Part shown: in pieces, positions 15,683 through 49,031 of the stretch
Layout: every line of letters begins with the position of its first letter
Position numbering within the stretch: position 1 is the stretch's first letter
Assembly (NCBI GenBank): GCA_023954035.1
Contig: JAMLIT010000024.1
Coordinates: forward strand, 1 to 56,387
Direction: 5' to 3'
Length of the DNA stretch: 56,387 nucleotides
Source: Burkholderiaceae bacterium
GTDB taxonomy: Bacteria; Pseudomonadota; Gammaproteobacteria; Burkholderiales; Burkholderiaceae_C
The notes under the pieces: model-generated
What the model was told of the DNA's origin: nothing
The model's database searches: none
Seen by the model: only the letters and a program-made list of their open reading frames with translations
Translations under genes and position numbers: made by a program

Positions 15683-16135
15683 AGTGTGAAGCGCGCCGAT
15701 AAGCCGGATTCTGTGCACCCGAACCCCCTTACGAAGGCTGGGCGTGACCGCCATTAATCTGGGCCGGGTGTCGCCACCACGGCTCGATGCTACCTACCCG
15801 CCAACTCTGCGGAACCACATCAACGTTGGCCTACTTGGTATTGCTGCGCGTAGAGATTGCCCGTTTCACCCAAGTCGCGTTCCGCGCCTTGGGTGGCTAT
15901 GGGGCTTCAGGCTTGCGCCTGAGCGTCTGGCTTGCGCCAGCCGGTGCCAGCTTGCGCTGGCTCCCCCATAGAGCACCCTTGGTGGCTGAAAACGACCTGA
16001 CTCGTCTCTGTTGCTCTAATCCTCACCTCACGGTGGGCAGCCGTTAGCTGCTACGCTGTCCTGTGCAGTCCGGACGTTCCTCCAGTGCCTGGTTTCCCAG
16101 ATTGCTACCGGCGGCGGTCTGGCGCGCTTCACCGG
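15683..16135 (-). ncRNA. rnpB: RNase P RNA (bacterial type A)
   Basis: Catalytic RNA of ribonuclease P, which matures tRNA 5' ends. On the minus strand the ends pair as a perfect P1 helix: GTGAAGCGCGCC at 16132-16121 with GGCGCGCTTCAC at 15697-15686. Conserved elements appear in order: GAGGAACGTCCGGAC (CR-I region, near 16082), GGGTAGGTAGCATCGAG in the middle, and CACAGAATCCGGCTTAT near the 3' end. Length is about 450 bases. The P12 region (15897-15971) is enlarged into a closing stem carrying three small hairpins with GCAA loops. Ends are estimated from the P1 helix. No clear terminator is seen downstream. Confidence 0.95.
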
Positions 16136-40070: not shown

Positions 40071-40568
40071 TCAGGAAACGATGTATGCCCCGGCTCCCGT
40101 CGCCATCAAGGTTCCATCGGGGCCAAAAAACTCCATGCGGGTGCTGGCGACGCGCGAACCCAGGCGCAGCACCTTGGCATGCAATTCGAAATGCTCGCCG
40201 ATGCCGGGGCGCAGATAGTCCACCCGCAAGTCGATGGTGCCCAGGCGCGTAAAGCGGTGCAGACGCTGCGAGGGCGGTTCGTCCATGTGCTTGGCGCCCA
40301 CGGCAGCCATGACGGCCAGGCCGCCCATGGCGTCGAGCCCGGCGCTGATCGCGCCGCCATGGACCCGGTTGTAGGCATAGTGGCCCACCAGCTCGGGACG
40401 CATGTCGATGCGCCCAATGGCGCCATCGGCGTGCAAGGACAGCACCTTGAGGCCGAGCACCTGATTAAAGACAATTTTTTCTTCGAAAATTTCCTTCAAG
40501 GCATCGATGAACGCTGCTTCCAGGACGGGAGCCGGGCGAGGTGGGGTCGGATTTTTTGGCGGATTCAT
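40071..40568 (-). CDS. Hotdog thioesterase, PaaI/YigI-like
   Basis: 165 residues. The hotdog core is visible: AYNRVHGGAISAGLDAMGGL (HGG motif), followed by LRVDYLRPGIGEHFELHAKV and ending GAGAYIVS. Likely acyl-CoA thioesterase with unknown substrate. It is 46 bases downstream of senC on the same strand and may be read from the same transcript; no functional link to selenium is evident. Confidence 0.87.
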   Translation of the reverse strand: MNPPKNPTPPRPAPVLEAAFIDALKEIFEEKIVFNQVLGLKVLSLHADGAIGRIDMRPELVGHYAYNRVHGGAISAGLDAMGGLAVMAAVGAKHMDEPPSQRLHRFTRLGTIDLRVDYLRPGIGEHFELHAKVLRLGSRVASTRMEFFGPDGTLMATGAGAYIVS

Positions 40569-40614
40569 AATTCAATGCTAGTGCAAGGCGTCGGCGCAAG
40601 TGCTCGTCGGGCCT

Positions 40615-41688
40615 TCAGCGCAGCCTCAATCGTCCCGACCCGCCCGAGACCATTTCGCCGATTTGCGCCGCAGCGCCAAAGCCATGGCGCTCAAACACTG
40701 CCAGCACATCGGTCACAGCGCTGGCAGCGCACGACACCAGCAGGCCGCCGCTGGTCTGCGGGTCGGTGAGCAGGGCGCGGTCGGCGGCGGAAAAATCCGG
40801 CGGCAAGTCGACTTGCGCACCATAGCCGTCCCAGTTGCGCCCCGAGGCGCCCGTCACCGTTCCCTGCGCAGCCAGCTCGCGCACGCCGGGCAGCAGCGGT
40901 ACCTTGACCCAGTCGATGGCGACATCCGCCCGGGCGCCGCGCGCCAGCTCCAGCGCGTGGCCGGCCAGGCCGAAACCGGTGACGTCGGTCAGAGCGTGCA
41001 CGCCGGCCAGCGCCGCCAGGTCGGGGCCAGGAGTATTGAGCTTCGTGGTCACCGCAATCATCTGTTCGTAGCCCGCTTCGGACAGCAGCCCTTTTTTCAG
41101 TGCTGCCGACATCACCCCCACGCCCAAGGGCTTGCCGAGAATGAGCTGGTCGCCCACCCGCGCGTCCGAATTGCGCTTGATTTTCTTCGGGTGCACGACA
41201 CCGAGCGCCACCAGACCATAGATCGCCTCTACCGAATCGATGGTGTGGCCGCCGGCAATCGGGATCCCTGCCTCGCGGCAGACCGATTCGCCGCCTTCGA
41301 GAATCTTGCCGATCACCTCGGTGGACAGCACGTTGACCGGCATGCCAACCAGCGCCAGCGCAAAAATCGGCGTGCCACCCATGGCATAGACATCGCTGAT
41401 CGCGTTCGTCGCGGCGATGCGGCCGAACTGGTAGGGGTCGTCGACGATGGGCATGAAGAAGTCGGTCGTGGCAATCACCGCAATGTCGTCCGACAACTGG
41501 TAGACCGCAGCGTCGTCTGCGGTCTCCAGCCCCACCAGGAGCTGGGGCGGCACCGGCATCTTGTTGGTGTTTTTCAGTATCTCGCTGAGTACCCCCGGCG
41601 CAATCTTGCAGCCGCAACCGCCGCCATGCGAGAGCGAAGTCAGGCGGGGGCTTGAGGAAGCCTTGGGGATTGAGGGTTCAGCAGTCAT
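40615..41688 (-). CDS. senC: Selenophosphate synthase (SelD/SenC), part of selenoneine cluster
   Basis: ATP-dependent enzyme making selenophosphate from selenide. 357 residues. The active-site segment HGGGCGCKIAPG carries a normal Cys (TGC codons, no in-frame UGA) at the position that is Sec or Cys in SelD. Other marks: ETADDAAVYQL, TTDFFMPIVDDPYQFGRIAA, the dominant GGHTIDSVEAIYG and LTDPQTSGGLLV. In the selenocysteine pathway selD sits with selA, selB or mnmH; none is here. Instead its start lies inside the end of the senB-like gene (11-base overlap), as expected for SenC. It could also serve selenoprotein or seleno-tRNA synthesis. Confidence 0.93.
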   Translation of the reverse strand: MTAEPSIPKASSSPRLTSLSHGGGCGCKIAPGVLSEILKNTNKMPVPPQLLVGLETADDAAVYQLSDDIAVIATTDFFMPIVDDPYQFGRIAATNAISDVYAMGGTPIFALALVGMPVNVLSTEVIGKILEGGESVCREAGIPIAGGHTIDSVEAIYGLVALGVVHPKKIKRNSDARVGDQLILGKPLGVGVMSAALKKGLLSEAGYEQMIAVTTKLNTPGPDLAALAGVHALTDVTGFGLAGHALELARGARADVAIDWVKVPLLPGVRELAAQGTVTGASGRNWDGYGAQVDLPPDFSAADRALLTDPQTSGGLLVSCAASAVTDVLAVFERHGFGAAAQIGEMVSGGSGRLRLR

Positions 41689-42658
41689 CGGTTGATTTCT
41701 CCAGCAGTTCGTTCAACAAGGCCAGCAAAGTGGCGCGCTCGCGCGCCGGCTCAAACAGCGGCGCCCGCAGCGCGCACTGGGCGGCCAAATGCGCCAGTAT
41801 GGCCGGCTCGGCCCGGCAGCGCTCGAGCCACGCCGCGAGCGCTGCCGAATCGCCAACGTCGAAATAGCCGCCGTAGTCAGCCCCCAGCATGCCGACGTTG
41901 CCGGAAATTCGGCTCGCCAGCACCGGCGTGCCGCTGCGCACCGCTTCCATCACGACGTGCGCCCCACCCTCCATGCGGCTCGGGTGTACCAGCACATGCG
42001 CGCGCTGAATGCGCCGCCGCGTCGCCTCGTGGGACAGTGCGCCGAGCCAGCGGTAGGTCGGAACACAATGTGCCAGCACTGCGGCCTCCTGCCCAAGCGC
42101 TTCTTCCAGCGGCGCGCCCACATGGTCGAGAAGAATGTCCGGGTGGCCCGCCAGGCGCCGTGCGGCTTCGAAGTAAGTGCGTGGTGATTTCTCCTCACGC
42201 AGGTGGCCCACCATCAGCGCGCGCAGAGGGTTCGGCGCTTTGGCAAGGCGCTTGCGTGCGGAGCAGGACTGAAAGCACACCACCGCCTTGGCGCGGACTT
42301 CGGGCGGCAGGTCCAGCACCGCCTTTTCGTGCAACACGATGAGCCGGTCTGCCAATTGCACGGACATTTGCGCGCTGGCGTCGGTGGCAAGGTCGCGGTA
42401 CAAATCCGTGCCGGTCAGCACCACGACGAGTGGCCGCGTGGGGGCCGCGCGCGCAAAGCGCTCAATGGACGGTGCCGAGCGGCGCGCGTGCAAGGCCACC
42501 AGCAGATCGGCGCGCGGACTGCTGGCGTCCCATGCATTCGTGATCCGGACCCGATAATGGTCCGCAAGCAGCCGCGACCATCGCTTTGCGGTCTGCCAAT
42601 TGCCATTGTTGGCGTCGGCAAGCGCAGGCGTGACGAGACACAGTTCAGGAAGGGCCAT
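41678..42658 (-). CDS. senB: Selenosugar synthase SenB-like glycosyltransferase (TIGR04348 type)
   Basis: GT-B fold enzyme of 326 residues, start ATG 42658 (MALPELCLVTPALADANNGN). That opening, with NWQTAKRWSRLL, is the mark of the TIGR04348 glycosyltransferases, which include SenB. SenB uses selenophosphate and a UDP-sugar to make a seleno-sugar. The C-terminal domain has RALMVGHLREEKSP, HPSRMEGGAHVVMEAVRSG and PVLASRISGN, the nucleotide-sugar binding region. It overlaps senC by 11 bases and diverges from senA with overlapping start codons. The activity is inferred from family and locus, not from visible catalytic residues. Confidence 0.88.
   Translation of the reverse strand: MALPELCLVTPALADANNGNWQTAKRWSRLLADHYRVRITNAWDASSPRADLLVALHARRSAPSIERFARAAPTRPLVVVLTGTDLYRDLATDASAQMSVQLADRLIVLHEKAVLDLPPEVRAKAVVCFQSCSARKRLAKAPNPLRALMVGHLREEKSPRTYFEAARRLAGHPDILLDHVGAPLEEALGQEAAVLAHCVPTYRWLGALSHEATRRRIQRAHVLVHPSRMEGGAHVVMEAVRSGTPVLASRISGNVGMLGADYGGYFDVGDSAALAAWLERCRAEPAILAHLAAQCALRAPLFEPARERATLLALLNELLEKSTDDC
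42647..42654 (+). promoter_or_regulatory. Ribosome binding site of senA within senB
   Basis: AGGAAGGG just before the ATG at 42657. It lies in the first bases of the antisense senB coding region, because the two genes have no intergenic space. Confidence 0.5.
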
Positions 42659-43934
42659 GCAACTGCTTATACAGGCACACGCGCCAACGCGCAGGCCCGC
42701 ACCCGGAGCTGCGGACAGCCCAGGGCTGCGCATCCGCAGCGCGGATGCTGAGCAAATCGCCCTGGCCCTGCGCGAGGGCCGCGAGCAGTTGCTGGCGATG
42801 TTCTCCGGCTTCGAGGCGGCCCTTGGCACCCAGGGGCTTGCCATTGCTTTCGATCCGGTGCTGAACCTGCCGCTGTGGGAGCTGGGCCACATCGGCTGGT
42901 TCGAAGAGTGGTGGATTCGCCGCAACCCCGAGCGCACACGCGGTACGCACTGCAGCGCTGCTCTGCACTGCCTTGACTCGCTATTGCCTGGGGCCGATGC
43001 GCTTTACGACTCGTCGAACGTCCCGCATGCCACGCGCTGGCGTCTGGCGTTGCCGGATGCGGACGCGACACGCGCCTACCTTGCACGGGTGCGCGAGCAA
43101 ACCCTGGCGCTGCTGCCGACGGGCGCGGCCGATGCCCAGGCGCTCTATTTCTTTCGGCTGGCGCTTCTGCACGAGGACATGCACCGCGAGGCCTGGTTCA
43201 TGATGGCGCAGCACCTGAACATCGAGCTTGGCCTTGCTCGGCCTGAAGCCTGCGGCGCGCTGCCTCAGGACCCAGGCGAATGGGCGGTGCCCGGTGGTGC
43301 GCGGCGCGTGGGCGGCGGCGCTGAAGGGTTCTCTTTCGACAACGAACTGCAAGCCCATACGCCTTTCGTTGAACCCTTTCGAATGGACCGCGCTGCCATG
43401 ACCTGGCGGCGCTACCTGCCCTTTGTGCAAGCCGGCGGCTACGACGACGCAGGACTGTGGACGCCCGAAGGCTGGCAATGGCGTCAGCAGCACAGCGATG
43501 GCATGCCTTTGCATACGCGGATCGCAGACGGCGAATGGCAGCAGCGGCGCTTTGGCCACTGGAGAGTGCTGAACCAAGACACTCCGGCCATGCACCTGAG
43601 CGCGCACGAAGCCGCCGCCTGGTGCCGCTTTGCCGGACGCCGGCTACCCACGGAATTCGAGTGGGAGAGCGCAGCGCGCCTGGCAGCCGAGCAGACCGAA
43701 GCCTTTGATTGGGGCCGGGTGTGGGAATGGACGGCCAGCGCGTTCGCACCCTACGCCGGTTTTGCGCCGCACCCGTACCGTGACTATTCGGCGCCATTTT
43801 TCGACGGTCGGCCGGTGCTGCGCGGCGGCTCTTTTGCCACCCATGCGCGCATGCTGCATCCAGCCTACCGCAATTACTTCACCGCGGACCGGCGGGACGT
43901 GTTTGCAGGCTTTCGCTCGTGCGCCATGGGCTGA
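42657..43934 (+). CDS. senA: Selenoneine synthase SenA-like (EgtB-type iron enzyme)
   Basis: Two-domain protein of 425 residues. The N-terminal DinB-like domain carries the three iron His ligands of the EgtB family: H78 (ELGHIGWFEEWW), and H172 and H176 in the HxxxHxE motif HEDMHRE. The C-terminal half is an FGE-sulfatase fold: GRRLPTEFEWESAA, WEWTASAFAPYAGF and RGGSFATHARMLHPAYRN, ending GFRSCAMG. EgtB joins sulfur to hercynine; SenA is the relative that joins selenium from the selenosugar. SenA over EgtB is chosen because senB and senC are adjacent and no egtA, egtC or egtD is present. Alternative: an ordinary ergothioneine EgtB. Confidence 0.88.
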   Translation: MQLLIQAHAPTRRPAPGAADSPGLRIRSADAEQIALALREGREQLLAMFSGFEAALGTQGLAIAFDPVLNLPLWELGHIGWFEEWWIRRNPERTRGTHCSAALHCLDSLLPGADALYDSSNVPHATRWRLALPDADATRAYLARVREQTLALLPTGAADAQALYFFRLALLHEDMHREAWFMMAQHLNIELGLARPEACGALPQDPGEWAVPGGARRVGGGAEGFSFDNELQAHTPFVEPFRMDRAAMTWRRYLPFVQAGGYDDAGLWTPEGWQWRQQHSDGMPLHTRIADGEWQQRRFGHWRVLNQDTPAMHLSAHEAAAWCRFAGRRLPTEFEWESAARLAAEQTEAFDWGRVWEWTASAFAPYAGFAPHPYRDYSAPFFDGRPVLRGGSFATHARMLHPAYRNYFTADRRDVFAGFRSCAMG

Positions 43935-44007
43935 GCCAAGCGCCGGATCAAACAATGCCGGCGCCCAAATACAGTTGCGCCGCTCAAAGCTGCAATCCAC
44001 ATCGAGA

Positions 44008-44066
44008 GCTATTATTTATATAGCTAACAGCGCCTATGAATAGAGCGCTAGAGGCCATTTTTACTC
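44008..44066 (+). repeat. Family A dispersed intergenic repeat, copy 5
   Basis: AGCTATTATTTATATAGCTA followed by ACAGCGCCTATGAATAGAGC and GCTAGAGGCCATTTTTA. It abuts the stop of the crotonase gene and closes the 130-base gap after senA. Confidence 0.7.
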
Positions 44067-44862
44067 AAAATTTACCATGTCTGCCGGCGCCTTGGGCAAA
44101 GCGCGCTGCGCCGCGCAAGGCGTCTGCCAGACAGGCTCGCCCACCTTGCCATTCCTGCAGCAGCGCCTCGGCGGTGGCCAGTCCGTCCTGAGCGAGCACG
44201 CTGGCCCGGTCCGCGCGCAGGGTTCGCTGAGGAAAGACAACCAGGCTGCGCGCCAGTTCCAGGGCAGCCTCCAGCGATTGCCCGGGCGCAACGACGCGGT
44301 TGCACAGGCCAATGGCCAGGGCCTCGGTCGCGTCGACCTTGCGCCCGGTCAGAATCAAATCCAGGGCCCGCCCCAGTCCAATCAGACGCGGTAAACGCAC
44401 CGTGCCGCCATCGATCAGCGGCACGCCAAAGCGGCGGCAATAGACGCCCATGTACGCGTCTGATTCCATCACCCGCAGGTCGCACCACAGCGCCAGTTCC
44501 ATGCCACCCGCCACGGCGGCGCCCGCGACGGCGGCAATGACGGGTTTGGACAACTGCAGCCGACTCGGGCCCATCGGGGCTTCAGGCTGCGCCTGGCCGG
44601 GATCAAAGTCGAGGGCTTGGGCCAGCGCCTCGGGGTCGGTCCCCTGGGCCCCCAAGACGGCCGCCGCCTGCAGGTCCCAGCCGGCGCAAAAGTGCCCGCC
44701 CGCGCCGTAAAACACCGCCACGTCGGCGCCGTCGTCCTGCTCGAAAGCGACGAACGCCGCGTGCAGGGCCTGGGCGCTCGCGCGGTCCACCGCATTGCGC
44801 ACCTGAGGACGGCTGAGTGTCACGAGCGTGACGCGGTCGAATTTTTCGGTGTAGACGTTCAT
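44065..44862 (-). CDS. Enoyl-CoA hydratase/isomerase (crotonase) family protein
   Basis: Crotonase-fold enzyme of 265 residues acting on acyl-CoA. Start ATG 44862 (MNVYTEKFDRVTL); a GTG four codons upstream (44874) is also possible. First oxyanion segment GGHFCAGWDLQAA, second AAVAGAAVAGGMELALWCDL, then RRFGVPLIDGGTVRLPRLIG. The catalytic Glu pair of true hydratases is not obvious, so hydratase, isomerase or another crotonase reaction is possible. Divergent from livH; part of an acyl-CoA block. Confidence 0.87.
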   Translation of the reverse strand: MNVYTEKFDRVTLVTLSRPQVRNAVDRASAQALHAAFVAFEQDDGADVAVFYGAGGHFCAGWDLQAAAVLGAQGTDPEALAQALDFDPGQAQPEAPMGPSRLQLSKPVIAAVAGAAVAGGMELALWCDLRVMESDAYMGVYCRRFGVPLIDGGTVRLPRLIGLGRALDLILTGRKVDATEALAIGLCNRVVAPGQSLEAALELARSLVVFPQRTLRADRASVLAQDGLATAEALLQEWQGGRACLADALRGAARFAQGAGRHGKF

Positions 44863-44972
44863 GGTGTTCTGCACGACATTTCGGCCGACGCTCTTGGGGT
44901 TAGCCCCCGCTTGCCGTATGCCCGGGGTGCGGGCACATTATTTATGCAAAGTCGGTGCTTTGCAAAACTACC

Positions 44973-44976
44973 GGAG
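44973..44976 (+). promoter_or_regulatory. Ribosome binding site choosing the livH GTG start
   Basis: GGAG, 5 bases before GTG at 44982. The longer frame from 44955 has no such site. Confidence 0.5.
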
Positions 44977-44981
44977 ACTTC

Positions 44982-45857
44982 GTGCAGTTCCTGCAATTGT
45001 TGGTCAGCGGCATCTCTCAGGGCTGCATCTACGGATTAATCGCACTCGGTTTCGTTCTTATTTACAAGGCGACCGAAGCCGTGAGCTTTGCCCAGGGCGA
45101 GCTGATGATGCTGGGCGCGTTTTGCGGCCTGGCGCTGATGACCGTGCTGGGCTTTCCGTTCTGGCTGGCGGTACCGGCCACCATCGTGGCCATGGGCCTG
45201 TTTGGCGTGGTGCTCGAGCGCGTCGTCATCCGCCCCATTCTTGGCCAGCCCCTGTTTTCCATCGTGATGCTGACCATTGGCGTGGGCTACGTGCTTCGCG
45301 GCCTGGTCACCATGATTCCAGGCATCGGCACCGAGACCCACACCCTCCCCGTGCCGTACAAGGACATGCCGTTGCGGGTGGGCGAACTGGTGCTAAGCGC
45401 CGAGCAGGTGGTGGTGATCGGCGCCACGGCGGTGCTGTGCCTGCTGCTGTACGCGATGTTTCGCTTCAGCAAGCTGGGCGTGGCCATGCAGGCAGCATCA
45501 CAAAACCAGCTCGCCGCCTACTACATGGGCATTCCGGTGCAGCGCCTGAACGGCCTGGCATGGGGGCTGGCAGCGGCCGTTGCCGCGGTGGCAGGCCTGC
45601 TGCTCGCGCCCATCACCTTCGTGCACGCGAACATGGGCTTCATTGGTCTCAAGGCCTTCCCCGCCGCCGTCGTGGGCGGCTTTGGGAGCCTGCCGGGTGC
45701 CATCGTCGGCGGCCTGGTCATTGGCATGGTCGAATCGCTCTCCGGTTTTTATCTGCCCGAAGGCGTGAAGGACGTCGCGCCGTACATCGTGGTGCTGATC
45801 ATGTTGATGGTCAGACCCAACGGCTTGTTTGGCGAACGCTTGAGCAAGAAAGTATAG
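44982..45857 (+). CDS. livH: Liv-type ABC transporter permease LivH
   Basis: 291-residue inner-membrane permease with about eight segments. LivH marks: SGISQGCIYGLIALGFVLIY, EAVSFAQGELMMLGAF, and GLKAFPAAVVGGFGSLPGA near the end. Works with livM, livG, livF and one or both of the binding proteins at 51159 and 52563. The wider gene set (acyl-CoA synthetase, thiolase, FadB) suggests a carboxylic acid substrate rather than leucine. Confidence 0.93.
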   Translation: MQFLQLLVSGISQGCIYGLIALGFVLIYKATEAVSFAQGELMMLGAFCGLALMTVLGFPFWLAVPATIVAMGLFGVVLERVVIRPILGQPLFSIVMLTIGVGYVLRGLVTMIPGIGTETHTLPVPYKDMPLRVGELVLSAEQVVVIGATAVLCLLLYAMFRFSKLGVAMQAASQNQLAAYYMGIPVQRLNGLAWGLAAAVAAVAGLLLAPITFVHANMGFIGLKAFPAAVVGGFGSLPGAIVGGLVIGMVESLSGFYLPEGVKDVAPYIVVLIMLMVRPNGLFGERLSKKV

Positions 45858-45859
45858 GA

Positions 45860-46005
45860 ATGGCACTCCCCCGATGCGCCTTCGGCGCCTCCCCCGCAAG
45901 GGGGCGATACCAGTGGCCCGGCAAAGCCGGCTCCACGGTATCCCTGGTATTGGGCAGCGCCGGTTGCACGCGCCATGGGCCATGGACCAGCAGGGCGATG
46001 CACTG
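45860..46005 (+). repeat. GC-rich repeat between livH and livM (family B, type 2)
   Basis: Contains CGCCTTCGGCGCCTCCCCC, GCCCGGCAAAGCCGG and CCTGGTATTGGGCAGCGCC. The last two blocks recur at 55190-55330 (ACTGGCAAAGCCAG, CTGGTATTGGTCAGCGCC). It separates two genes that normally overlap or touch. Confidence 0.65.
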
Positions 46006-46007
46006 AT

Positions 46008-47084
46008 ATGCGTTTTCTCTTCAAAACTTCCTATTCGCAGGACCTGCGGCTGGCCAAACACGGCGGGCATTTGTTTTGGTATGGGCTGCTGGGGATTGCG
46101 CTCCTGGCGGCCCCTTGGTTCACTCCGGAATACTGGTTGGCGCAGCTCACCTTTGTGCTCATTTACGCCATCGTCGGTCTGGGCTTGATGCTGCTGGCCG
46201 GCTTCACCGGTTTGTTCTCGCTCGGGCACGCGGCCTTTGTGGGCGTGGGGGCGTACACGCAGGCAGTGCTCACCGGCATGGGCTGGCCTTTTCTGCTTTC
46301 ACTGGCATGTGCGGCGGGCATTTCCGCAGCGGTGGGTGTCATCGTGGGGTTGCCCGCGATGCGGGTCAAGGGCATTTACCTGGGCATGGCAACGCTGGCT
46401 TTCGGCTTCATCGTGGAAGAAGGTTTCGCCCGCTGGGAAAGCGTGACCGGAGGCAATTCGGGCAAGACGGTCTTGATGCCCGAAGTCTTTGGCGTGCCGC
46501 TCGACTCGGCCATGGCGTTTTATTTTCTGTGCCTGGTCATCACGGTGGCCTGCACGCTGATCATCCTCAACCTGCTGCGTTCACCGACTGGACGAGCGTT
46601 CGTCGCCATTCGCGATTCGGAGATTTCGGCGCAGAGCATGGGCATCCACCTGGCGTACTACAAGACCCTGTCGTTCGGCCTCTCGGCCGCATTCGCCGGC
46701 ATCGGCGGCGCACTGTATGCGCACAAGCTGCAGTTCATCTCGCCAGACCAGTTCAGCATTTTGCAATCCATCGACCTGCTGCTGATGATTGTCATTGGCG
46801 GCCTGGGCTCGGTGCATGGCGCTTTCCTTGGGGCGATCTTTCTGATCTCCATGCCCCAACTCATTGCGCTGGGCAAAGACTGGCTGCCCGATTCCGTTGG
46901 CCAGTCGCCCGGCCTGCAGGGCCTGGTGTACGGCGTGGTACTGATCAGCTTTGTGCTGTTCGAACCCATGGGGCTCTATGGCCGCTGGCTCAAGGTGCGC
47001 ACCTGGCTGCAGATGTTCCCGTTCTATCGCCAGGGAATGTTCAAGCGGCAGAAGTCTTTTCAGAAGTCGGACAGATTGAGATGA
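46008..47084 (+). CDS. livM: Liv-type ABC transporter permease LivM
   Basis: 358-residue permease, ATG 46008. About nine membrane segments; marks GLGLMLLAGFTGLFSLGHAA, GLPAMRVKGIYLGMATLAFG and IVIGGLGSVHGAFLGAIF. The second membrane subunit with LivH. Separated from livG by 268 bases of repeat DNA. Confidence 0.93.
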   Translation: MRFLFKTSYSQDLRLAKHGGHLFWYGLLGIALLAAPWFTPEYWLAQLTFVLIYAIVGLGLMLLAGFTGLFSLGHAAFVGVGAYTQAVLTGMGWPFLLSLACAAGISAAVGVIVGLPAMRVKGIYLGMATLAFGFIVEEGFARWESVTGGNSGKTVLMPEVFGVPLDSAMAFYFLCLVITVACTLIILNLLRSPTGRAFVAIRDSEISAQSMGIHLAYYKTLSFGLSAAFAGIGGALYAHKLQFISPDQFSILQSIDLLLMIVIGGLGSVHGAFLGAIFLISMPQLIALGKDWLPDSVGQSPGLQGLVYGVVLISFVLFEPMGLYGRWLKVRTWLQMFPFYRQGMFKRQKSFQKSDRLR

Positions 47085-47089
47085 AACAC

Positions 47090-47345
47090 TCCCCGAGTCG
47101 CTTCGCGCCGCCATGCAGCCGCCAGAGTCGGCAGCCCTTCGGGAATGTCCAAGCCTGCAGAGGCAGGCTTGGAGCCGCACCCCTGCGCCCCGCTCTCGCC
47201 TCGCTGCGCGATGCGGGAGGGAGACGCCCCCGGCGCCCGGGGTGCAGACAACATCGGTATGTCGCGGCCGCGGCCACTGTGCGGGGGGCACTGGCTGCGG
47301 TCTCGCCCTTTTCGTGGGCTGTGGGTGGCGCAAAGCGCTATGGAC
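47090..47345 (+). repeat. GC-rich repeat between livM and livG (family B)
   Basis: Shares with the copies at 14605 and 27840 the blocks GCCAGAGTCGGCAGCCCTTC, GTCCAAGCCTGCAGAGGCAG and GCTTGGAGCC. A hairpin-forming part (CTCGCTGCGCGATGCGGGAG) resembles one in the 49035 copy. No gene found. Confidence 0.65.
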
Positions 47346-47352
47346 AACTGAA

Positions 47353-48213
47353 ATGACCGCTAGCGTTTCCACCATGGCCGACGAAATCCTGCTCAGCGCC
47401 AAAAACCTCAGCGTACGCTTTGGCGGCGTGCTGGCGGTCAGCGATGTGAGCTTCGACGTGCGCCGGGGCGAAGTATTTACGCTGATCGGCCCCAACGGTG
47501 CCGGCAAGACCACCGTGTTCAATCTCATCAGCCGCATCTACACCCCCACGGCGGGCCACATCGAATGGTCGGGACCGGACGGCCCCATCATGCTGACCCA
47601 GCAACCCCCGCATACAGTCGCCGGGCTGGGCATTGCGCGCACCTTCCAGAACATCGAGTTGTTCGAGCACGCCAGTGTGCTGCACAACCTGCTGATTGGC
47701 CGCCACACCCGCCGCCAAACCGGCTTGTGGGCCGACATGCTGTTCACCGGGCGCGTACGGCGCGCCGAGATACGGGCCCGCGAGAAGGCCGAGGAAGTCA
47801 TCGACTTTCTCGACTTGCAGCATTACCGAGACACCCTGGTGGCGGGGCTCCCCTATGGCGTTCGCAAGGTGGTGGAACTGGCGCGCGCGCTGTGCACCGA
47901 GCCGCAACTGCTGCTGCTCGACGAACCTTCGTCGGGACTGAACGTAGAGGAAACCGAAGACATGGCGTTCTGGATCCAGGATATCCAGCAGGAGCTGGGT
48001 ATTTCAGTGCTGATGGTGGAGCACGACATGACGCTGGTCTCCAAGGTCTCCGACCGGGTGCTGGCCATGAACCAGGGCGAGCTGGTTGCGTTGGGCACGC
48101 CACACGAGGTGCAGGCCCACCCGGGCGTGATCGAGGCCTATCTGGGCAGCATCGACGAAGTCACCAGCCTGCGCCGCCCCGCCGGCAGCGCGCCCCTGCG
48201 GAGCGCAGCATGA
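47353..48213 (+). CDS. livG: Liv-type ABC transporter ATPase LivG
   Basis: 286-residue ATPase from ATG 47353 (ATG 47374 also possible). Walker A GPNGAGKTT, Q-loop ARTFQNIELFEH, a degenerate signature LPYGVRKVVELARAL as normal in LivG, Walker B LLLLDEPSSGLN and switch VEHDMTLV. Its stop overlaps the livF start (ATGA). Confidence 0.93.
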   Translation: MTASVSTMADEILLSAKNLSVRFGGVLAVSDVSFDVRRGEVFTLIGPNGAGKTTVFNLISRIYTPTAGHIEWSGPDGPIMLTQQPPHTVAGLGIARTFQNIELFEHASVLHNLLIGRHTRRQTGLWADMLFTGRVRRAEIRAREKAEEVIDFLDLQHYRDTLVAGLPYGVRKVVELARALCTEPQLLLLDEPSSGLNVEETEDMAFWIQDIQQELGISVLMVEHDMTLVSKVSDRVLAMNQGELVALGTPHEVQAHPGVIEAYLGSIDEVTSLRRPAGSAPLRSAA

Positions 48214-49031
48214 TGATGATCGCCCCCACGCCCTTGAGCAGTGCGCTGCCCGGCGGAGCGCTTGCGCCGCTCTTGCGTTTGCAAAACGTGGAGAGCGCCT
48301 ACGGTCCGATCAAAGCAATCCGCGGGGTGAGCCTGCAGGTGCAACCGGGCGAGATTGCGGCCGTTTTGGGCAGCAACGGCGCCGGCAAGACGACCATTCT
48401 GAAAACCATTTCCGGCATCCTGGATCCCCGCCGCGGCAGCGTGGAGTTCGATGGCGCCGACATCACCGCCCACGACCCCGCCGCCATCGTGCGCCGAGGC
48501 ATGGTGCATGTGCCCGAGGGGCGCGAGGTCTTTGCTCTGCTGCCGGTGCGCGAAAACCTGCTCATGGGCGCCTACACCCGCAGCGACGGCGACGCCGTGG
48601 CGCGCGACCTGGAACTGGTCTACAGCTATTTTCCCATTCTGCGCGAGCGTTCCAACCAGGAGGCGGGCCTGCTCTCCGGCGGTCAACAGCAAATGCTGGC
48701 GATCTCGCGCGCACTCATGGCCGCGCCGAAACTGATCCTGCTCGACGAGCCCAGCCTGGGGTTGTCGCCGCGCCTGACCAAGGAAATTTTCGAGATCGTG
48801 GTGCGCATCAACCGGGAACGCGGCACCACCATCTTGCTGGTGGAGCAAAACGCCAACATGGCGCTCAACGCGGCCGACTATGGCTATGTGCTGGAAAACG
48901 GCCGCATCGTCATGGAAGACACCTGCGCCAACCTGCGCGAGAAGGACGACATCAAGGAGTTCTACCTGGGCATGAAGGACCAGGGCGTACGTGGCGAGCG
49001 GCGGTGGAAGAAGAAGAAAACATGGAGATAG
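48210..49031 (+). CDS. livF: Liv-type ABC transporter ATPase LivF
   Basis: 273-residue ATPase; three consecutive ATG codons at 48210-48218 make the exact start uncertain. Walker A GSNGAGKTT, HVPEGREVFALLPVRENLLM, signature LSGGQQQMLAISRAL, Walker B LILLDEPSLGLSP and VEQNANMALNAAD, typical of LivF. Unusual: a basic tail (RRWKKKKTWR) beyond the usual end, possibly read into repeat DNA. Confidence 0.93.
   Translation: MMMIAPTPLSSALPGGALAPLLRLQNVESAYGPIKAIRGVSLQVQPGEIAAVLGSNGAGKTTILKTISGILDPRRGSVEFDGADITAHDPAAIVRRGMVHVPEGREVFALLPVRENLLMGAYTRSDGDAVARDLELVYSYFPILRERSNQEAGLLSGGQQQMLAISRALMAAPKLILLDEPSLGLSPRLTKEIFEIVVRINRERGTTILLVEQNANMALNAADYGYVLENGRIVMEDTCANLREKDDIKEFYLGMKDQGVRGERRWKKKKTWR

Follow-up and report, generated by a model that had tools for sequence, protein, structure and literature searches.

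Introduction

Only a few pathways deliberately place selenium in a small molecule, and among them is the sen pathway, whose product is selenoneine. The sen cluster of Variovorax paradoxus was reportedly described by Kayrouz et al. in 2022. In the published scheme, SenC produces selenophosphate, SenB uses it to build a selenosugar, and SenA combines the selenosugar with hercynine to give selenoneine (PMC9814287). The same SenC, SenB and SenA steps are given in PMC10702425 and PMC10891094, the former adding a selenoxide elimination and a reduction to the scheme, whereas the introduction of PMC11929427 has SenB reduce selenate, in conflict with the structural papers. In V. paradoxus naming, SelD and SenC are the same protein, and the bacterial role of selenoneine is called unclear, according to PMC11448449; PMC13188914 lists ovoselenol among bacterial selenometabolites. 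Here, we describe a sen locus at positions 40615-43934 of a 56,387-nucleotide stretch of DNA from a Burkholderiaceae bacterium. This whole stretch, referred to as the window, is contig C17 of the host genome G000, an assembly of 3.33 Mb in 76 contigs that is rated 89.5% complete.

The sen Locus and Its Three Enzymes

The locus is very probably a selenoneine biosynthesis cassette. The first-pass annotation of this DNA had recognized the trio of this pathway, a proposal that is backed by curated family models, by matches to solved SenA and SenB proteins, by the position of SenA in a tree and by an egtD gene elsewhere in the genome. The three adjacent and overlapping genes that it had reported are also found: senC, senB and senA are intact open reading frames (ORFs) that exactly fill the interval (Table 1), the longer forms in the ORF list (419 and 444 amino acids) starting at upstream GTG and TTG codons. 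All three products score above the curated cut-offs of their NCBIfam models, with E-values (2.4e-145 for SenA, 4.2e-132 for SenB and 3.5e-161 for SelD) that exclude chance. Base composition was also considered as a trace of recent foreign origin and gives no sign of it, as the G+C content of the cluster (about 0.65-0.67) lies inside the 0.60-0.68 of its surroundings.

SenA is homologous to EgtB of ergothioneine biosynthesis, and one could read it as an EgtB standing by chance beside a glycosyltransferase and a selD gene, in a locus without selenoneine. The EgtB model TIGR03440 does match SenA at 258 bits; this score is under its cut-off of 360, whereas the selenoneine synthase model NF041186 is matched at 484.7 bits, over a cut-off of 420. 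Among PDB sequences the top match is the solved SenA 8ryz (389.8 bits; 51% identity across 404 aligned positions), the best EgtB reaching only 140.6 bits; we take 8ryz to be the V. paradoxus enzyme, an assumption on which we do not rely. In a SenA/EgtB tree of 54 rows, where the OvsA row and EgtB 4x8b sit on long branches and are of unsure placement, the window SenA belongs to a 28-row clade with 8ryz and most of the senB-linked SenAs shown (support 98/93). The other homologue of the genome, an EgtB, belongs to a clade of 15 EgtB rows that includes the solved EgtB 8qf6 (100/100), and a branch at 99/94 sets the EgtB rows to one side, so that the window enzyme does not group with the ergothioneine enzymes.

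The iron-binding histidines H78, H172 and H176, cited in the first-pass annotation, are confirmed at these positions of the 425-residue SenA, and this part of the earlier description stands. Their diagnostic value does not: in the alignment they are common to 37 of 37 SenA rows, to all 16 EgtB rows compared and to the one OvsA row, and consequently they indicate an iron enzyme, not which one, and were dropped as SenA-specific support. The two families are told apart by 20 other positions, each conserved across 95% or more of the 37 SenA rows and across no more than 10% of the 16 EgtB rows. At all 20, the window SenA (itself one of the 37) carries the residue typical of SenA. As a separate EgtB (573.3 bits) stands beside egtD in the same genome, the reading of SenA as an ergothioneine enzyme can hardly be credited, and it was rejected on model cut-offs, tree and separating positions.

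SenB lies inside family TIGR04348 (selenosugar synthase SenB), as had been claimed, with 439.9 bits against a cut-off of 300, and its top PDB sequence match is the solved SenB 8jjq (365.7 bits). V. paradoxus SenB is 8FBX according to PMC10702425. Residues N20, T23, K158 and E231 of the published enzyme were probed by mutation and proved important, and an EGGAHV motif is noted, in PMC10891094; the corresponding N20, T23, K157 and E230 of the window SenB are invariant across 15 aligned SenBs, and the motif is found at position 230. SenC, in turn, matches NCBIfam NF002098 (535.9 bits, cut-off 299) and TIGR00476 (429.1 bits, cut-off 125), its best solved match being 3u0o (331.8 bits), whose CGCK loop aligns with that of SenC, in the Cys form. 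The gene of this selenophosphate synthetase adjoins senB, which it overlaps by 11 bases.

Table 1. Coordinates of the features of the sen locus within the window.
Feature	Positions	Strand	Description or basis
senC (selD)	40615..41688	-	357 amino acids; selenide, water dikinase, Cys form, SHGGGCGCK loop
senB	41678..42658	-	326 amino acids from ATG at 42658; Se-glycosyltransferase (selenosugar synthase)
senA	42657..43934	+	425 amino acids from ATG at 42657; selenoneine synthase, non-haem iron, EgtB-like
CATG, head-to-head overlapping starts of senB (-) and senA (+)	42656..42659		Sequence; two bases common to both ATGs
AGGAAGG, likely senA ribosome-binding site, opposite senB codons 2-4	42647..42653	+	Sequence; putative use
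Inserted sen stretch, extent judged by relative G007	40503..44019		blastn of the window against L200 and L201

Genome Complement and Proposed Pathway

The absence of egtD, mnmH and selA (along with selB, egtA and egtC) noted in the first-pass annotation concerned the window; in the genome, egtD and mnmH are on other contigs, and selA was not found in a genome-wide search of G000. Specifically, mnmH lies on contig C6 (353.7 bits) and egtD on contig C13 (31351-32238; 377.5 bits, cut-off 290.9), directly followed by a canonical egtB of the ergothioneine type (L003:7264-8523; 573.3 bits, TIGR03440 cut-off 360) whose product is 52% identical to 8qf6. No second selD was found, the one SelD found in the genome being the window SenC. 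SenC thus does not look like an extra enzyme private to the pathway: a single SelD over cut-off, together with MnmH over cut-off, is found both in G000, whose assembly is incomplete, and in its relative G012. Given egtD, EgtB, mnmH and one SelD, the host is expected to be capable of turning hercynine into ergothioneine as well as selenoneine, and of using selenium in transfer RNA (tRNA).

The reaction scheme that we propose for the locus rests on the published V. paradoxus work. SenC would convert selenide and adenosine triphosphate (ATP) into selenophosphate, and SenB would combine the selenium of selenophosphate with a uridine diphosphate (UDP)-sugar into a selenosugar. Iron-dependent SenA would then bond the selenium of this selenosugar to hercynine provided by the EgtD of the genome; the resulting selenoxide intermediate would fall apart and, upon reduction, yield selenoneine. 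A different outcome is conceivable, in which the selenosugars made by SenB are used as such or given to another acceptor, with selenoneine as a minor product. Indeed, the published SenB accepts six UDP-sugars, as stated in PMC10891094, and in a gene-order sample (a species-genome collection scanned with an alignment of 15 SenBs, the best 80 being taken from 581 confirmed stretches) 23 of the 80 SenB loci have no SenA of at least 150 bits within the available stretch, some contigs ending there. Against this, senA stands head to head with senB in the window, and in a co-occurrence sample of 60 genomes (our own included) EgtD is over cut-off in all 15 that have SenA over cut-off, versus 13 of the 45 SenA-negative ones (Fisher p 7e-7, uncorrected for relatedness). 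We accordingly consider another main selenometabolite very improbable.

Probable Displacement of the selD Gene Beside mnmH

A comparison of 18 members of the genus (our own included) with SelD over cut-off indicates how SenC may have become the sole SelD. In 15 of them SelD lies within a few kb of mnmH, the exceptions being G000, G012 and G018, in each of which no SelD other than the sen-type one exceeds the cut-off. At the mnmH site of these three genomes the same upstream gene adjoins mnmH, at most 86 bases apart and without selD; in G007 and G013, selD stands between that upstream gene and mnmH. The window SenC is 98% and 93% identical to the SelDs of G012 and G018, 61-64% identical to the 15 mnmH-linked SelDs, and 67-81% identical to the majority of SelDs from sen clusters in other genera, a minority being far more distant at 32-35%. 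In a tree of 57 chosen SelDs, from which those at 32-35% were excluded, the 15 mnmH-linked SelDs of the genus form one clade (100/99), and those of the window, G012 and G018 stand in the midst of SelDs linked to sen genes, beside one from a Variovorax metagenome-assembled genome. Constraining the three to join the 15 costs 66 log-likelihood units (approximately unbiased test, p-AU 0.001). In G032, of another genus, a sen-side SelD is likewise present with mnmH elsewhere, and no SenB was found in that genome.

Judging from tree and synteny, the selD of the cassette most likely displaced the ancestral selD beside mnmH. SenC, being the only SelD found, would then most likely supply selenophosphate both to SenB and to the tRNA selenouridine synthase MnmH. 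The co-occurrence sample points in the same direction. Among its 15 SenA genomes, 13 have one SelD over cut-off, G037 has none, and G046 has two contig-end pieces that overlap in the model and represent one or two genes; MnmH is over cut-off in 14 of the 15, G034 having two pieces under cut-off. In these 60 genomes, one SelD serving both SenB and MnmH hence looks like the rule. In two SenA-bearing genomes (G040:C28:17953-18882 and G047:C2:222109-223050) SelD has an in-frame TGA, probably encoding selenocysteine.

Probable Insertion, Exchange and Loss of the Cassette

The cassette most likely entered an ancestor of the species at a site flanked by a thioesterase and a crotonase gene. These two flanking genes are adjacent, without sen genes, in G007 and G021; the gap between the blastn-matched parts measures 112 bases in L200 and 160 bases in L201, and senA, senB and senC have no tblastn match at 1e-5 in either locus. 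After the split of the species, the cassette seems to have been exchanged between the window species and G012, as its identity is high and that of the flanks lower. In particular, when the window is compared with locus L150 of G012 in 300-base bins, those from 40,101 to 43,700 are 97.3-99.7% identical with the exception of 40,401-40,700 (82.6%), versus 69-92% for bins 43,701-48,800 and 56-91% for bins before 40,100. Patches of 93-98% occur elsewhere between these genomes, and such exchange is thus not peculiar to the sen locus.

In G018, senC (88% identity at the DNA level) stands between the same flanks without senA and senB; the match on the crotonase side resumes about 250 bases on, and no SenB was found in this genome, which is rated 95% complete. 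The trees of both flanks give no firm order of the window, G012 and G018, so that a loss of senA and senB in G018 is likely and a late gain in the other two retains some room. Such a late gain would mean that senC was already the selD of the lineage at this site, as it now is in G018, and that senA and senB were added beside it afterwards. The solitary senC at the syntenic place of G018 and the indecisive flank trees both fit this history. On the other hand, the SenC of the window, G012 and G018 nests among SelDs encoded by the sen clusters of other genera, and SenC and SenA have overlapping sets of nearest foreign relatives (loci L073 and L143), as is expected if both came together. The SelD tree, moreover, joins G018 with the sen-bearing G012 (100/86), which makes G018 a case of loss, a grouping that the exchange between G000 and G012 may have disturbed. 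On balance, we regard the later addition of senA-senB as unlikely, and retain the arrival of a complete cassette followed by loss in G018. The mnmH-side selD is lost under either history. Just past the end of senA the DNA is AT-rich (window 44000-44075), and a similar stretch occupies the matching place of G018 (L185 11395-11460); repeats of about 100 bases elsewhere also match between genomes.

Several observations weigh against this account of the locus. An assembly of 76 contigs and 89.5% completeness could be missing a second selD; the relative G012, in 3 contigs and rated 100% complete, likewise has one SelD over cut-off. The 28 sen-linked SelD rows do not form one clade (7 changes): one of them, G057, falls outside the sen side of the tree, which in turn includes three SelDs linked to mnmH and four without linkage, that of G018 being among these four. 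The empty site is seen in two genomes only, G007 and G021, and a search for the crotonase in 14 genus members gave no match at 1e-60 in 10 of them and 58-61% matches in two. Finally, the EgtB of the genome might make some selenoneine by accident. Taking these points together with the evidence above, it appears fairly probable that the sen cassette behaves as a mobile unit whose SelD can become the sole SelD of its host: the native mnmH-side selD would be lost, SenC would become necessary for both 2-selenouridine and selenoneine, and senC could be left as an orphan after loss of senA-senB, as in G018 and, separately, in G032.

Gene Order and Start Sites of sen Loci

The locus is a genuine and otherwise ordinary sen cluster, belonging to a pathway that is already named in NCBI models and is common in the family, 110 of 299 sampled family genomes having SenB above cut-off. 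Within the gene-order sample, 57 of the best 80 loci contain both senA (at least 150 bits) and senB, and in 54 of these 57 the two genes are divergent, 43 of the divergent pairs having a SelD match behind senB. Eight loci (L095, L097, L100, L112, L114, L122, L126 and L131) carry a distant SelD, 32-35% identical to the window SenC, about 1.2-1.3 kb behind senB; in the relatives G031, G034 and G038, SelD lies inside open frames of 769-851 codons and is for this reason probably part of a fusion protein. Two loci of the same genus, L148 and L149 (G003 and G023), encode a distant SenA (42-43% identity), with egtD no more than about 2 kb away; no EgtB-level match was found in these two genomes, and selD still stands beside mnmH. 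They would represent a separate sen acquisition, possibly without ergothioneine.

The start codons of senA and senB share two bases in the window. Among 54 divergent senA/senB pairs (53 loci plus the window), such a CATG overlap is possible in 18, the other 36 having no such pair or starts that cannot be assigned. In these 18 loci, the DNA preceding senA surpasses the mean of its shuffles for anti-Shine-Dalgarno binding in 18 of 18 cases and the DNA preceding senB in 10 of 18 (paired p 0.0003, uncorrected for relatedness). This better binding before senA suggests that the senA ribosome site lies opposite the first codons of senB. As for senB, which has no clear Shine-Dalgarno sequence and a TATAAG ending 7 bases before its ATG, a leaderless transcript may be envisaged, a suggestion and nothing firmer, as a TATAA-like box at such a distance occurs in the window and a few loci and not in all 18. 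Scans of 42300-44100 returned one promoter-like site (0.3 expected) and one terminator-like site (1.5 expected), neither placed to serve senA or senB. Elsewhere in the window, a class A bacterial RNase P RNA lies at 15684-16130 on the minus strand (Rfam RF00010, 196.6 bits).

Significance

What this locus adds to the described pathway is its wiring at the genome level, that is, hercynine common to the ergothioneine pathway and selenophosphate apparently shared with tRNA modification. It also provides a likely case in which the enzyme of an accessory pathway has displaced the housekeeping copy. If the dual role of SenC is true, cells deprived of senC should form neither 2-selenouridine nor selenoneine. 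Among the open papers searched, mostly available in less than full text, we found no report of selD displacement by a sen-type SelD, and no open paper that treats selenoneine together with mnmH.

Comparison with Known Systems

Like the sen cluster of V. paradoxus, the window cluster has the same three enzymes, all above their cut-offs, with SenA 51% identical to 8ryz and SenB matching 8jjq best. Its senA points away from senB-senC, an arrangement found in 54 of the 57 loci with both genes that the comparison of gene order covers. The ergothioneine pair EgtB-EgtD resembles the locus in that EgtB is homologous to SenA, has the same iron histidines and acts on the same substrate, hercynine, and it differs in that the window genome possesses its own EgtB, next to egtD on another contig. 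OvsA, a selenoxide synthase that presumably serves the ovoselenol pathway, is a further selenium-using relative of EgtB and matches the window SenA at 145.1 bits. OvsA, whose branch is long, is 31% identical to the window enzyme. It falls outside the clade of 32 SenA rows (99/98) to which the window SenA belongs, as do five SenA-model matches from other families. Finally, the SelD-MnmH pair is present in 15 of the 18 genus members that have SelD over cut-off, and its MnmH is kept in the window genome; in contrast to those 15, G000, G012 and G018 lack the mnmH-side selD and have the sen-type SelD only.

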